From contig JAGPMN010000011.1 of assembly GCA_018052825.1 (NCBI GenBank), positions 1 through 39,132 on the forward strand: a DNA stretch of 39,132 bases. The letters run 5' to 3'. Each line of letters opens with the position of its first letter. Positions within the stretch are counted from its first letter, which is position 1. Shown one piece after another: positions 33,276-39,017 of the stretch. The translations under genes and the position numbers were made by a program. Source of the stretch: Methanothrix sp. (GTDB taxonomy: Archaea > Halobacteriota > Methanosarcinia > Methanotrichales > Methanotrichaceae). The notes beneath the pieces are model-generated. The model searched no databases and had not been told where the DNA came from. It saw nothing but the letters and a program-made list of their open reading frames with translations.

Positions 33276-34019
33276 ATGGAATTCCTTGACATTATGAGCA
33301 TCTCACACCGCTATATGGAGATACTAAACCCTTCCACGCCTGAAAAGATCATCAAACTTGGCAAATTACTCAAATTGAAAAAAGGAAACCGGGTTATTGA
33401 CTTCGGTTGTGGTTGTGCCGTACCCCTTACTCTCTGGGCTGAGGAATTCGGTATTACTGGTATTGGAATAGATATATCCGAGGATTTCTGCGACAGGGCT
33501 AGGCAAAAACTGGCTTCGAAAGGTTTATCGGACCGAATCGAAATCGTTTGCTCCAATGGGGCTGATTACATATTCGAAGAAGGGGTTTTCGATGCCGCAA
33601 CATGTATTGGGTCAACGTTTATTTTTGGCGGCTGCCAGCAGACACTCCAAGTACTGAAGCGAGCTGTTCATCAGAATGGACGCCTTGGTATCGGTGAAAC
33701 CCACTGGCTTAGCAATCAGGTACATCCGGTATACGCCCAAAAACAGACAACTACCCATACAGAAACGGAACTAACTCAATTTGCCCGGGATGAAGGCTTT
33801 GAACTCGAATACATCATTCGTGCCAGCTACGACGACTGGGACAGGTACATTTCGGATGGTTGGTATGGACTGATACGTTGGCTTGAAGAAAATCCCACCC
33901 ACACTGACTATGAACAGGTATTCAAGCATTTCCGTACTGACCAGGATGATTATTTACAGTTCCAACGCCAATATATGGGTTGGGCCATGTACTGCCTCGC
34001 TCCCATGAAATCTCGTTGA
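33276..34019 (+). CDS. Class I SAM-dependent methyltransferase, passenger of the IS66-type unit
   Basis: A 247-residue Rossmann-fold methyltransferase. Motif I is VIDFGCGCAVPLTLW near residue 40, with the acidic ribose ligand in GIGIDIS (around 65). Later motifs IEIVCSNGADYIF and FDAATCIGS follow. The C-terminal half is rich in Trp, Tyr and Gln (YDDWDRYISDGWYGLIRWLEEN) and probably forms a substrate cap. The substrate is unknown. AGAGG precedes the ATG. Codon use is visibly more AT-rich than in neighbouring genes, which with the flanking repeats points to acquisition by transfer. Confidence 0.85.
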   Translation: MEFLDIMSISHRYMEILNPSTPEKIIKLGKLLKLKKGNRVIDFGCGCAVPLTLWAEEFGITGIGIDISEDFCDRARQKLASKGLSDRIEIVCSNGADYIFEEGVFDAATCIGSTFIFGGCQQTLQVLKRAVHQNGRLGIGETHWLSNQVHPVYAQKQTTTHTETELTQFARDEGFELEYIIRASYDDWDRYISDGWYGLIRWLEENPTHTDYEQVFKHFRTDQDDYLQFQRQYMGWAMYCLAPMKSR

Positions 34020-34379: not shown

Positions 34380-35654
34380 ATGCCCGATCCCCGCAAGAAG
34401 ATAGAACAGCTGATAGAGTCCCTTGAAGAGCTGAGGCTGCATGTGGGCAGAAAAGACATGGCTGTGGGCGGCCAGGAGATCAATGCGCCGCTCTACTTCT
34501 CCCTCGCCAATGCATGCCTGCGAAACCATGCAGTGCTGCTCTACGGCGGCATGGGGGCCAACAAGACCACGCTTGTCAACCTGCTGGGCACCTCCTTCCT
34601 CTCCCTGGATCTGGAGGCTGTGGAGGACCTCATGATCTCCGGGCACCCTGAGCAGACTGAGGAGAAGATCGTGGGCTTCCTCGACCCAAGACAGTGGATG
34701 GGGCCCACCTCAGGGCCGACCAGGGTTCTCTGGACTGGATGGGCCCAGTCGAGGTGGAAGCTCATCAATGAGATCAACCGCTTTCCTGGAGGCAAGCAAA
34801 ACCTGTTTCTGGAGATACTGCAGAAGCGGCGGATAAGCTACGCCGGGCAGGTCTGCTCTCCTGGGGACACCTGCTACTTCGCAACCATGAACCCTGAGTT
34901 CTCATCGACATACCCCGTAGACCAGGCCCTTCTGGACAGGATATCCGCCTGCGTGCCAGCCACACAGCCCGATTTTCTTGCCGGCCTGCTCCTGGCCGAG
35001 CGAGAGAGGGAGGTGCGGGAGCTGGCGAGGGAGCTGCCCCGCTTCACATGCGGGGAGTTTGAATCGCTTCCCGGGCTGGTGGCGGAAAAGCCCGTCAAGA
35101 GCCAGGTGGAGCTGGCCATACTCTGCCTGCTGCGCGACTTTACACTGTGCGAGAGGGCCCCGGCCTATGACAAGAGCCAGCTCTCAAAGGCCAAGCCGTC
35201 CATGGGGCTCTGCTCAGGCTGCCACTACTGGAATAATCCTGAGGCGGTCTGCTGGCAGGTGGATGAGGGGCTCTCAGACAGGGTGCGCCAGGACCTGAGG
35301 GCCTTTACCAGGGCCTTTGCCTTCCTGCTGGATATGGACGCAGACCTGCAGGTGCTGCGGGCCGTGGCCCCATATGTGATATGGCACAGGGTGACGCCGC
35401 TTCCCTCCGCTCTGGAGAAGCCCCCATACTTCGGTGCGGGCAGGCTGGCCTATGTCTCGGACCTCGTGGAAAAGAGCATCAACCGCACAATGAACGAGAG
35501 GGCGGAGATGAACCTGATCTACTCCAGGGCTGTTGACGGCGAAACATCCGCATCGAAGGCGATTGAGGAGCTCTCCCTGTTCGACGATCCCATCGCCAGA
35601 ATGGATTTCATCCCCTCCCTGGAGCGGATCAAAGCCGCAGGACTATGGAGATGA
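34380..35654 (+). CDS. MoxR-like AAA+ ATPase with altered Walker motifs
   Basis: A 424-residue AAA+ protein. The order fits MoxR-type ATPases: P-loop GGMGANKT at about residues 55-62, Walker B KLINEINR at about 127-134, sensor-1 FATMNPEF (around 163) and VDQALLDRI with a conserved Arg (around 180). The Gly before the P-loop Lys is Asn and the Walker B Asp is Asn, while Lys, Glu and sensor Asn remain. The C-terminal half holds a Cys cluster (GLCSGCHYWNNPEAVCW) that could bind metal. It heads an operon with overlapping downstream genes. The ATG lacks a strong ribosome site. Confidence 0.82.
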   Translation: MPDPRKKIEQLIESLEELRLHVGRKDMAVGGQEINAPLYFSLANACLRNHAVLLYGGMGANKTTLVNLLGTSFLSLDLEAVEDLMISGHPEQTEEKIVGFLDPRQWMGPTSGPTRVLWTGWAQSRWKLINEINRFPGGKQNLFLEILQKRRISYAGQVCSPGDTCYFATMNPEFSSTYPVDQALLDRISACVPATQPDFLAGLLLAEREREVRELARELPRFTCGEFESLPGLVAEKPVKSQVELAILCLLRDFTLCERAPAYDKSQLSKAKPSMGLCSGCHYWNNPEAVCWQVDEGLSDRVRQDLRAFTRAFAFLLDMDADLQVLRAVAPYVIWHRVTPLPSALEKPPYFGAGRLAYVSDLVEKSINRTMNERAEMNLIYSRAVDGETSASKAIEELSLFDDPIARMDFIPSLERIKAAGLWR

Positions 35655-36433
35655 TGAAGATGAAGCTGTCCCGCTTCATGGACGAGGCCTACGAGGGAAT
35701 GGCTGCAGCCGGGCCTTCAAGACTGAAGAGCCAGAAGAAGGGCCTCATATTCAGCCTGGAGGACTTGGCAGAGCAGGTGGGCTCCAGGCCCGTGCGGGAG
35801 GATGTGGAGCAGCTTGTGCGAGATGACAGAGGCCAGATGGAGATGCTCCTCTCCTCCAAGCCTGGAAAAAAGTATGCACTGCTCTGGGGCTATCTCTCCG
35901 GCATGGCAGCGGAGATGAGCGATGGGCCGCTCATGCTGCCTGGCCTCGAGTATGCGGGCCTCGAGATGCGGCATGGCTGCCTGCTCCTGGAGCAGGCCGG
36001 CTCTCACGTGGGTGAGAGGATGGCAGGGGGCAGGATCATCGTTCAGGGGGGTGCCGGCGATTACCTGGGCCAGGAGATGGCAGGTGGCGGGATAATCGCG
36101 GCAGGCTGCAGAGATTATGCCTTTCGCAATATGCAGGGTGGCTTCGGCCTGATCAGGGGCGACGCAGGAAAGTATGTGGGCCTGGGAAACAGCGGCGGCA
36201 GGATAGTTGTGCTTGGAAGCTGCGGTGAGAGGGCAGGCTGGCTCATGCACTCCGGGAGCCTCTATGTGCGTGCTGATGCGGGAGACTACATCGGCCTTCT
36301 CATGTCCGGTGGCAGGATCCGGGTCAGGGGCAGGGCGGGGCGCAGAGCTGGCTGGAGGAAGAGGGGCGGGAGCATCTCTGCGACAGGCTTCGGCCCGGAG
36401 GCTGCGGAGGATGTCGAGCTGGATATGGGCTGA
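35645..36433 (+). CDS. GXGXG beta-helix protein (FwdC / glutamate synthase C-domain type)
   Basis: A 262-residue protein. Residues 1 to about 100 are helical and unrecognised. Residues 105-255 hold about seven repeats of the form G-x-x-x-G-x-x-M-x-G-G-x-I-x-V-x-G, the right-handed beta-helix found in formylmethanofuran dehydrogenase subunit C and the C-terminal domain of glutamate synthase. No catalytic residues are evident, so a structural or docking role is likely. Starts at 35645, 35651, 35654 and 35660 are all in frame. ATG 35651 gives an ATGA overlap with the ATPase gene. Confidence 0.82.
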   Translation: MEMMKMKLSRFMDEAYEGMAAAGPSRLKSQKKGLIFSLEDLAEQVGSRPVREDVEQLVRDDRGQMEMLLSSKPGKKYALLWGYLSGMAAEMSDGPLMLPGLEYAGLEMRHGCLLLEQAGSHVGERMAGGRIIVQGGAGDYLGQEMAGGGIIAAGCRDYAFRNMQGGFGLIRGDAGKYVGLGNSGGRIVVLGSCGERAGWLMHSGSLYVRADAGDYIGLLMSGGRIRVRGRAGRRAGWRKRGGSISATGFGPEAAEDVELDMG

Positions 36434-37919
36434 TGTCTGGGCGAAGTCCCGCAAGAACTGGCACTGGCCGCTTCTGCCCATGCCCCGCCTGGCTGCAGCG
36501 GCCCGGGGAGGGCAGGGTGCAAGTGAGGGCGAATTTCCATTCGAAAACTACAGGATAACCATTGACTGCGATACTCTGGCCCTTGGGCCGGAGTACCTCG
36601 TGGGGCTCTTCGACCATCTCATATCTCACTACATCTTTTGTCCGCGATCGCTGGAGGAAGCTGGCCGCCTGGCGCTGGCAGCCATCAGGGGGCTGGAGAG
36701 GCCGGACGCCCTGGCTGCGCGGCGCATGGTCAACATATTCTCGGACATCGTCTGCGACTCATTCCGGGTGGAGAGAAGCCCGGAGGACGGGAGGAAGACA
36801 CTTCTCGGCTGGAGGAGGCTGGCCTCGCAGGGGCAGGCCCTCTCACCGCTGGATCGAGTGGTGCTGGGGTTTCTCAGACAGTACTGGGGAGCGGATCTGC
36901 CGGCATGCTCTCTGCCTGCGGTGGCGCAGCTGGCCAGGGTCTTCTCTCCCGGCGTCATGGACAGGAGTCTATGGCCCAGGCAGTGCCGGCAGATGGCCAG
37001 CATACTGGAGCCTTTCCAGCCGGGGCTGCTTGGCAGGGGAGAGATCAGGTGCCTGGAGATCCTGAACGGCAGCGCCCGGGACGCGCCACTCTCCTGCGCT
37101 GCTGAGCTGGACATCCGCCAGTACGAGCAGGCCATGGCAGTACTTGGACTGAAGGGGGACCTCGTCCGCTGGTATCGCGACCAGAGCTACAGCATCGAGA
37201 TCGCCGAGACCGCCAGCCCCAGGAGGGAGAGCTATCCCTCTGCGCCCCAGAAATGGAGGCTGACAGATCCATGCAGCGATCTGGACATGGCCTACTCACT
37301 CAGCCTTGCCCCCAGGCTCATCCCGGGCGTCACAACATACAAGAGAAGCCGGGAGAGCGGGCCGCTCGTTCCCGGAGGCAGGGCGGTGCCAGACCTGCTT
37401 GTGGTGCTGGACAGCAGCCGCTCCATGGAGGGGCCGGCCCTGGGCACCAAGACCCACAGGGCGACACTTGCAGCATTCAAGGCCTGCCGCTATGCCCACA
37501 GCAAGGGGGCAATGATTGCAGCCATAAACTTCAGCGAGAAGTACATCGTCGCCCCCTGGACGCGGGATCTCCACGCCGTGGAGAGCATCCTTGTGGAGTT
37601 TTTCTCCACCCGCACACATATTCCGGGAAAGGCGGTGAGAAGGCTGGCTGAGGAGCGGCCGGGCTGCCTGATCCTGTGCATCACGGACACCCACATTCAG
37701 AACCTCTATAAGGAATGGGAGGACATCAAGAGGGCTGCCGATGCTGGCAGGTTTGTGCTCTTCTGCATCGACCAGGCCTACAGGGACAGGAACGCAGAAA
37801 AGGCGCTGGCCGGGCTTGGGCAGGTCTACTACATAAACCGGCTTGAGGACCTGGTCTCAATGGTCGTGGAGGTCACAGGAAGGGCCTACTGCGGGGAAAG
37901 TTTTATCTCTTCGCAGTGA
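36411..37919 (+). CDS. VWA-domain protein
   Basis: A 502-residue protein. The first 320 residues are helical and not recognised. A von Willebrand factor A domain fills about 325-490, with the metal-site motif DSSRS at about 333-337, a Thr in FFSTRTHIPGKA and an Asp in ILCITDTH. All metal-site elements are present. I chose ATG 36411 because GGAGG lies 9 bases upstream. It overlaps the GXGXG gene by 23 bases. In MoxR-VWA pairs this protein usually carries the ATPase to its target. Confidence 0.85.
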   Translation: MSSWIWADVWAKSRKNWHWPLLPMPRLAAAARGGQGASEGEFPFENYRITIDCDTLALGPEYLVGLFDHLISHYIFCPRSLEEAGRLALAAIRGLERPDALAARRMVNIFSDIVCDSFRVERSPEDGRKTLLGWRRLASQGQALSPLDRVVLGFLRQYWGADLPACSLPAVAQLARVFSPGVMDRSLWPRQCRQMASILEPFQPGLLGRGEIRCLEILNGSARDAPLSCAAELDIRQYEQAMAVLGLKGDLVRWYRDQSYSIEIAETASPRRESYPSAPQKWRLTDPCSDLDMAYSLSLAPRLIPGVTTYKRSRESGPLVPGGRAVPDLLVVLDSSRSMEGPALGTKTHRATLAAFKACRYAHSKGAMIAAINFSEKYIVAPWTRDLHAVESILVEFFSTRTHIPGKAVRRLAEERPGCLILCITDTHIQNLYKEWEDIKRAADAGRFVLFCIDQAYRDRNAEKALAGLGQVYYINRLEDLVSMVVEVTGRAYCGESFISSQ

Positions 37920-37935: not shown

Positions 37936-38008
37936 GCCGGGATAGGGTAGTGGTTTATCCTGAGGGACTGTGGATCCCTCGAGCTGGGTTCGAATCCCGG
38001 TCCCGGCC
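37936..38008 (+). tRNA. tRNA-His (GTG)
   Basis: The acceptor stem pairs GCCGGGA with TCCCGGC. The anticodon stem AGGGA/TCCCT encloses the loop CTGTGGA with anticodon GTG. The T arm is CTGGG-TTCGAAT-CCCGG. The discriminator is C73, as expected for histidine. The base before G1 is T, so the G-1 identity residue is not encoded and must be added after transcription. CCA is not encoded. Confidence 0.95.
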
Positions 38009-38030
38009 CCTGATATCAAAGCGATCTGCT

Positions 38031-38516: not shown

Positions 38517-38535
38517 TAAGCAGGCATAATGCTCC

Positions 38536-38559
38536 CTACCGTCCCCCCGGGGACGGTAG
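38536..38559 (+). promoter_or_regulatory. 11-bp hairpin in the NYN gene leader
   Basis: CTACCGTCCCC and GGGGACGGTAG are perfect inverse copies around a two-base spacer. The hairpin lies between the predicted transcription start and the GGTGAT ribosome site at 38577-38582. It could be a regulatory hairpin or a palindromic operator. Confidence 0.5.
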
Positions 38560-38588
38560 TGCACAATAATTTACAGGGTGATTGGCTT

Positions 38589-39017
38589 TTGGATAAAACG
38601 GCAGTCTTTATCGATGGTGGTTTTTTTGGGAAGGTTCTCGATGACTTAAATAAGCCACGGATTGATTTTGAAAAGCTCTCCGATAACATGTGCCATGGCA
38701 ATAGGCGACTAAGAACCTATTATTATGATTGCTTGCCATATCAGAGCGACCCGCCAACGCCAGAAGAACGAGAAAGATACTCAAAAAAATCTAAATGGCT
38801 CGATAGACTGTTGCTTTTGCCCAGATTTGAGGTTAGGTTGGGAAGGCTCTCTCACAGATTCGAGCAAAAGGGAGTGGACATACTATTCTCAGTTGACCTT
38901 GTTCGCATGAGCTGGGCTAAACAAATAGATAGAGCAGTGTTGATCACAGGAGATAGCGATTTTATCCCTGCAGTAAATGCGGCAAAAGAAACAGGTGTCA
39001 TCGTAGAGGATTCCTAA
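38589..39017 (+). pseudogene. NYN-domain (LabA/PIN-like) protein, truncated by an IS5-like insertion
   Basis: The frame encodes the first part of a NYN nuclease-like domain: KTAVFIDGGFFGKVL near the start and VLITGDSDFIPAVNAAKETG with the catalytic Asp pair near the end. Relatives continue for a further strand and helix. Here the frame meets gaggattcct, the IS5-like terminus, at 39006 and stops at 39015. Start TTG 38589 has GGTGAT six bases upstream. The frame is open to ATG 38529, but that region contains the hairpin. RNA binding or cleavage is the family role. Activity of the stump is doubtful. Confidence 0.7.

Follow-up and report, generated by a model that had tools for sequence, protein, structure and literature searches.

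The window analysed here, a 39,132-nucleotide stretch (positions 1 to 39,132 of contig JAGPMN010000011.1) of a Methanothrix sp. genome (GenBank assembly GCA_018052825.1; 1.8 Mb, 77 contigs), carries at positions 34380-37919 of its forward strand three successively overlapping genes, which encode a MoxR-type AAA+ ATPase, a protein with GXGXG repeats and a protein with a VWA domain (Table 1). An initial annotation made from the letters of the sequence had described this arrangement, and both its coordinates and the trio itself were confirmed. Relatives of the GXGXG gene begin at an ATGA overlap, which corresponds here to the ATG at 35651. For the VWA protein, an open frame reaches back to 36207, and comparison with relatives places the start at about 36411, overlapping the GXGXG stop; a tRNA-His gene lies directly after the trio. 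Chance can be excluded: at least 15 further Methanothrix genomes have all three frames in synteny, at 56-81% identity and with the same close or overlapping junctions.

The ATPase is matched by the Pfam families AAA_3 (E 1e-4; score 22.3, gathering cut-off 27) and AAA_5 (E 6e-4; 20.3, cut-off 22). Both scores fall under the cut-off, and it is therefore probably a divergent MoxR-type AAA+ protein; its orthologues at loci L122 and L140 pass the AAA_5 cut-off. Of the marks of MoxR proteins, it has the sensor 1 Asn and the conserved Arg, and its operon includes a gene for a VWA partner. Across 28 family sequences, over which all motif counts for this protein were taken, K62, E131, N171 and R187 occur in every member and the motif GHPEQTEEK is invariant. 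The nucleotide site, whose alterations had been overlooked in the initial annotation, departs from the canonical Walker A (GxxxxGK[ST]) and Walker B (hhhhDE) patterns: Asn replaces the Gly before the Walker A Lys in Methanotrichaceae and Altarchaeum (Gly kept in 19/28), and Asn replaces the Walker B Asp in Methanotrichaceae alone (8/28; Asp kept in 20/28), so the double change is confined to this family. Bacterial and Archaeoglobi members are canonical, with G[ED][PY]GxGKT and DEINR. As a result of these non-canonical motifs, hydrolysis by the Methanotrichaceae motor is probably slow or modified. The residues of a candidate metal site, Cys4 (C257, C278, C281 and C291, with H282), are retained in 26-28 of the 28 sequences, with losses mainly in Altarchaeum.

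The GXGXG protein matches PF01493 (E 5e-9; 36.4 bits, above the gathering cut-off of 32.5) and consists of a helical N-domain (approximately residues 1-93) followed by a right-handed β-helix (approximately 94-250). Its structure model, a confident one (predicted local distance difference test score 91.5), has about 7-8 coils, in line with the seven repeats counted initially. The β-helix is closest in sequence and fold to FwdC of formylmethanofuran dehydrogenase (Fwd): the FwdC model TIGR03122 matches with E 5e-30 and 104.5 bits, short of the 130.65 bits required by the NCBIfam equivalog cut-off (FwdC encoded by the genome itself reaches 275.8 bits), and the top Foldseek matches are FwdC/FhcC, with probability 1.0 over ~164 residues. 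The GXGXG domain of glutamate synthase (GltB), from the same repeat family, matches more weakly (E 3e-5; Foldseek probability ~0.5). By profile comparison, the helical N-domains of the bacterial and Archaeoglobi proteins are homologous (E 3e-5), and that of Methanotrichaceae had no detectable match to either. A further GXGXG protein of the same genome scores under the FwdC cut-off and lies outside any trio.

The third protein matches Pfam VWA_2 with an E-value of only 0.03; it is assigned to the VWA proteins because its C-terminal domain has the DxSxS...T...D pattern of a metal ion-dependent adhesion site (MIDAS), namely DSSRS (336-340), T404 and D428 (P0003 numbering), which is invariant in 14 relatives. 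The metal site is thus intact, as initially annotated. What had gone unnoticed is an additional conserved N-terminal domain with the motif HxxxH-Y-xx-CP...D (counted from Met 36411), in which H69 is conserved in 37, H73 in 36, C77 in 35, P78 in 38 and D112 in 35 of 38 VWA sequences. From its sequence, this domain resembles a zincin helix that has lost the catalytic Glu: Glu follows the first His in only 4/38 sequences, and the window has HLISH. True HExxH motifs occur in Altarchaeum (HEICH), Muiribacteriota (HEVGH) and one Syntrophaceae copy (HELNH). Foldseek returned no significant match for the domain, the only one of note being the minigluzincin abylysin (4jiu; probability 0.66, E 2.6).

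The nearest relatives of all three proteins are found in Methanothrix and other Methanotrichaceae (identity up to 81%), nearly all of which maintain the gene order. Among 394 sampled genomes of the phylum, the trio is present in 14/14 Methanotrichaceae genomes scoring, and the AAA+ protein occurs otherwise only in family f9 (13 genomes), whose loci are Archaeoglobi-like and in which the named Archaeoglobales locus L140 nests in the tree. More widely, AAA+ relatives are ~49% identical in Altarchaeum and 24-31% identical in bacteria, the latter being metagenome-assembled genomes (MAGs) labelled Deltaproteobacteria, Syntrophaceae, Desulfobacterales, Latescibacterota, Gemmatimonadota and Muiribacteriota. 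Because bacteria supply most of the distant relatives, the system cannot be called archaeal.

A scan of 84,980 genomes for AAA+ relatives returned 139, of which 80 loci were kept. At these loci, and at some added to them, the gene order by profile search was AAA+-GXGXG-VWA in 66 and AAA+-VWA-GXGXG in 4, along with AAA+ alone in 8, AAA+-GXGXG in 4 (L100, L116 and L139 on contig ends) and AAA+-VWA in 1; among the other loci, eight are separately fetched Altarchaeum genes or a locus cut by its flank. The first order is that of Desulfobacterota-type MAGs, Latescibacterota and Gemmatimonadota; the second is that of Archaeoglobi, where additional loci of this kind occur and where one genome (G102) has the AAA+ gene separate from a VWA-GXGXG pair. 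In Altarchaeum the parts are unlinked, with AAA+ in 4/4 genomes, VWA in 3/4 and, in 4/4, a double-length GXGXG protein of 571-588 residues with a repeated GXGXG array. Several phyla of archaea and bacteria thus conserve the three genes as a set. Treating these genes as a single system, as first suggested, agrees with the synteny in Methanotrichaceae and with the almost constant presence of the GXGXG gene wherever the contig permits a check.

The AAA+ tree and the VWA tree (a quick version) agree, both with a clade of Methanotrichaceae and Altarchaeum, one of Archaeoglobi and one of bacteria. A Syntrophaceae MAG (G430) has a second, Archaeoglobi-type trio beside its bacterial-type one, which suggests a probable lateral transfer. 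Within the genus Methanothrix, the trio has also decayed. The strongest case is G020 (96% complete), which at a site beside a PfkB-family kinase gene retains nothing but VWA fragments that have lost the MIDAS region, both the AAA+ gene and a GXGXG gene of the trio type being absent there; other remnants are found in G010 (77% complete) and G008 (58%), both incomplete MAGs. FwdC-like proteins persist in all three. This joint decay in two to three lineages indicates that the trio is dispensable and that its parts are lost together, and the agreement of the trees, combined with locus decay in genomes that keep FwdC-like genes, identifies the GXGXG protein as a true third component.

Near-constant grouping, co-inheritance, joint decay, a FwdC-like fold and conserved residues in the nucleotide site, MIDAS, Cys4 and HxxxH...D motif make it likely that the trio encodes a dedicated remodelling machine of the MoxR AAA+ type, made up of three fixed components. 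In the NorQD complex, which drives the insertion of iron, the VWA protein reaches into the ATPase pore with a finger (PMC13036017). By this analogy, which is established at the level of the family, we propose that the AAA+ protein would be the motor, presumably hexameric, that the VWA protein would be the adaptor, presenting the client through its MIDAS site, and that the GXGXG protein, with its FwdC-like β-helix and helical N-domain, would be a permanent third subunit, most likely a docking surface or client-recognition arm. These roles, the formation of a complex and the binding of metal by Cys4 and HxxxH...D are inferences. The remodelling or metal-loading role suggested in the initial annotation is made plausible by the NorQ/NorD analogy and by the candidate metal ligands of the AAA+ and VWA proteins, but the target enzymes that it named, Fwd and glutamate synthase, are not supported. 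The trio would then be a protein-remodelling and possibly metal-handling MoxR/VWA machine in which a captured FwdC-like β-helix has become a fixed subunit. More tentatively, it may represent an archaeal and bacterial chaperone class, a MoxR/VWA motor with metal sites of its own that has recruited the Fwd β-helix as a permanent client-binding subunit, serves a widely conserved complex and, in Methanotrichaceae, has a doubly altered nucleotide site.

Several observations weigh against such a machine. At some loci (L113, L123) no partner gene adjoins that of the AAA+ protein, one (L109) has no adjacent GXGXG gene, and no recurrent neighbour points to a client. The Cys4 site is lost in Altarchaeum and the HxxxH motif is missing from two Archaeoglobi genera; therefore neither metal site is indispensable. 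A loss of ATPase activity is another possible reading of the altered Walker A and B motifs of Methanotrichaceae.

NorQ/NorD, CbbQ/CbbO, RavA/ViaA and CoxD/CoxE share with the trio a MoxR-type AAA+ gene adjoining a gene for a VWA protein with intact MIDAS, and the adaptor-motor logic is likely to be shared too. Unlike these pairs, the trio includes a fixed FwdC-like β-helix component, its AAA+ protein has Cys4 and GHPEQTEEK, its VWA protein has the HxxxH...D N-domain, and no client gene lies alongside. Likewise, the GXGXG protein shares its right-handed β-helix with FwdC/FhcC but scores under their family cut-off, has its own helical N-domain, lies in no Fwd operon and occurs in bacteria without FwdA. 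To our knowledge, MoxR-VWA pairs are widespread, and clients are known for only a handful. The trio is such a pair with a constant third subunit whose fold comes from a known enzyme, and it employs the Fwd β-helix outside one-carbon metabolism. No published description was found in the open literature, subscription journals and preprints being outside the search, and the initial impression of an undescribed trio stands to that extent. GHPEQTEEK plus Cys4 gives the trio a clear sequence signature; because members with canonical Walker motifs occur in groups with cultured representatives (for instance Archaeoglobi), the machine and its client are experimentally approachable.

We consider it rather unlikely, but worth weighing against the three-part remodelling machine, that the trio is specifically a metal-insertion chaperone, in which the HxxxH...D domain and Cys4 would carry metal and the ATPase would help transfer it to a metalloenzyme. 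The conservation of both sets of ligands, the NorQD iron-insertion precedent and the apparently mostly anaerobic lineages are consistent with this, but each candidate site is lost in one lineage, Cys4 is possibly a structural zinc site, and no metalloenzyme gene recurs nearby.

It is improbable that the trio serves proteolysis or processing in which the AAA+ ring feeds a zincin-type peptidase, namely a VWA N-domain that has degenerated in most lineages. The true HExxH sequences noted above and the abylysin match, the sole non-trivial one, would fit, as does the layout of the metallopeptidase-VWA family DUF2201 (L202), which has, at the motif level only, the same succession of an N-terminal HExxH-type motif, HP/CP, a later D and then VWA. 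However, with the catalytic Glu replaced in 34/38 sequences, most members cannot be ordinary zincin proteases, and the abylysin E-value falls short of significance. Comparing profiles against a DUF2201 protein gave nothing, although a single-sequence target makes this a weak test; there was no Pfam DUF2201_N match, and DUF2201 (PF13203) matched neither the trio VWA proteins nor any protein of the window genome.

Slightly less probable still is a dedicated maturase for Fwd or glutamate synthase, in which the GXGXG protein would mimic the β-helix subunit of the client. The likeness to FwdC suggests this, and the window genome has FwdC adjoining a FwdA-like reading frame. Co-occurrence was examined in 34 trio genomes outside Methanotrichaceae (5 archaeal, 29 bacterial), many of them incomplete MAGs. 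FwdA reached the cut-off in 5/34: its occurrence in all five archaeal genomes fits a maturase, whereas 0/29 among the bacterial ones speaks against it. A glutamate-synthase match over most of the domain was found in 17/34; the full domain was missing in the other 17, among them the four Altarchaeum genomes without exception and two single-contig chromosomes, G423 and G429. No Fwd neighbour (FwdA or FwdB) recurs at trio loci, and the decay of the trio in G020 and G010 left FwdC-like proteins in place. Methanogens of the Methanosarcinaceae group have Fwd, but no trio was found in the listed Methanosarcinaceae-type relatives (family f3). On co-occurrence, both enzymes were rejected as general clients. 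Finally, it is very improbable that the trio is a ternary MoxR-vWA system for conflict or defence like those of Kaur and colleagues (PMC7159879): the make-up of MoxR, vWA and a third component is shared, but the published third components are VMAP, iSTAND, FtsH and β-propeller and none of the four types has GXGXG (PMC7159879), variable effector domains are absent, the AAA+ and VWA trees agree, the trio is vertically inherited and conserved long-term within Methanotrichaceae, and PADLOC gave no match.

Table 1 Positions of the trio, its motifs and other features in the window and in related genomes (L, locus).
Feature	Location	Strand	Details
MoxR-type AAA+ ATPase	34380..35654	+	424 aa
GXGXG protein	35645..36433	+	262 aa as listed; probable start ATG 35651
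VWA protein	36411..37919	+	~502 aa from relative-supported start
AAA+ Walker A	residues 56-63		GGMGANKT
AAA+ Walker B	residues 128-134		LINEINR
AAA+ sensor 1	N171
AAA+ conserved Arg	187
AAA+ signature motif	residues 88-96		GHPEQTEEK
AAA+ candidate metal site	C257/C278/C281-H282/C291		Cys4
SAM methyltransferase gene	33276-34019	+	upstream of trio
tRNA-His	37936-38010		directly after trio
NYN-domain gene	38529-39017		near contig end
Further GXGXG protein, same genome	L002 976-1863 (C55)		295 aa
Second trio, Syntrophaceae MAG G430	L159 867-4564		Archaeoglobi-type
Decayed trio copies, Methanothrix G020, G010, G008	L208 3554-4232; L043 5681-6242; L209 5-544
Tandem GXGXG genes, Archaeoglobi	L192 4031-5529; L193 3829-5342; L196 8984-10471		after VWA
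Subunit D and GXGXG genes, Altarchaeum	L153 4962-5612 and 5632-7347		likewise L154, L155, L156
Conserved protein, Altarchaeum	L092 5952-6440; L093 2305-2793; L094 3850-4341; L096 8344-8835		162-163 aa; after AAA+ gene

A Pfam scan of 111 neighbour proteins showed recurrence only of TPR, radical SAM and other widespread families. The S-adenosylmethionine (SAM) methyltransferase gene upstream of the trio was rejected as a fourth member, as it was not found at the trio loci of relatives. Genes for a PfkB protein (upstream at ~10 Methanotrichaceae loci) and an HD-domain protein (upstream at 12 related bacterial loci) reflect local synteny. Some Archaeoglobi loci have a tandem pair of GXGXG genes after VWA. 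In 4/4 Altarchaeum genomes, the double-length GXGXG gene directly follows that of A/V-type ATP synthase subunit D, and the AAA+ gene is followed by one for a conserved protein without a Pfam match. Near the contig end, the window also encodes an NYN-domain protein of putative ribonuclease type.

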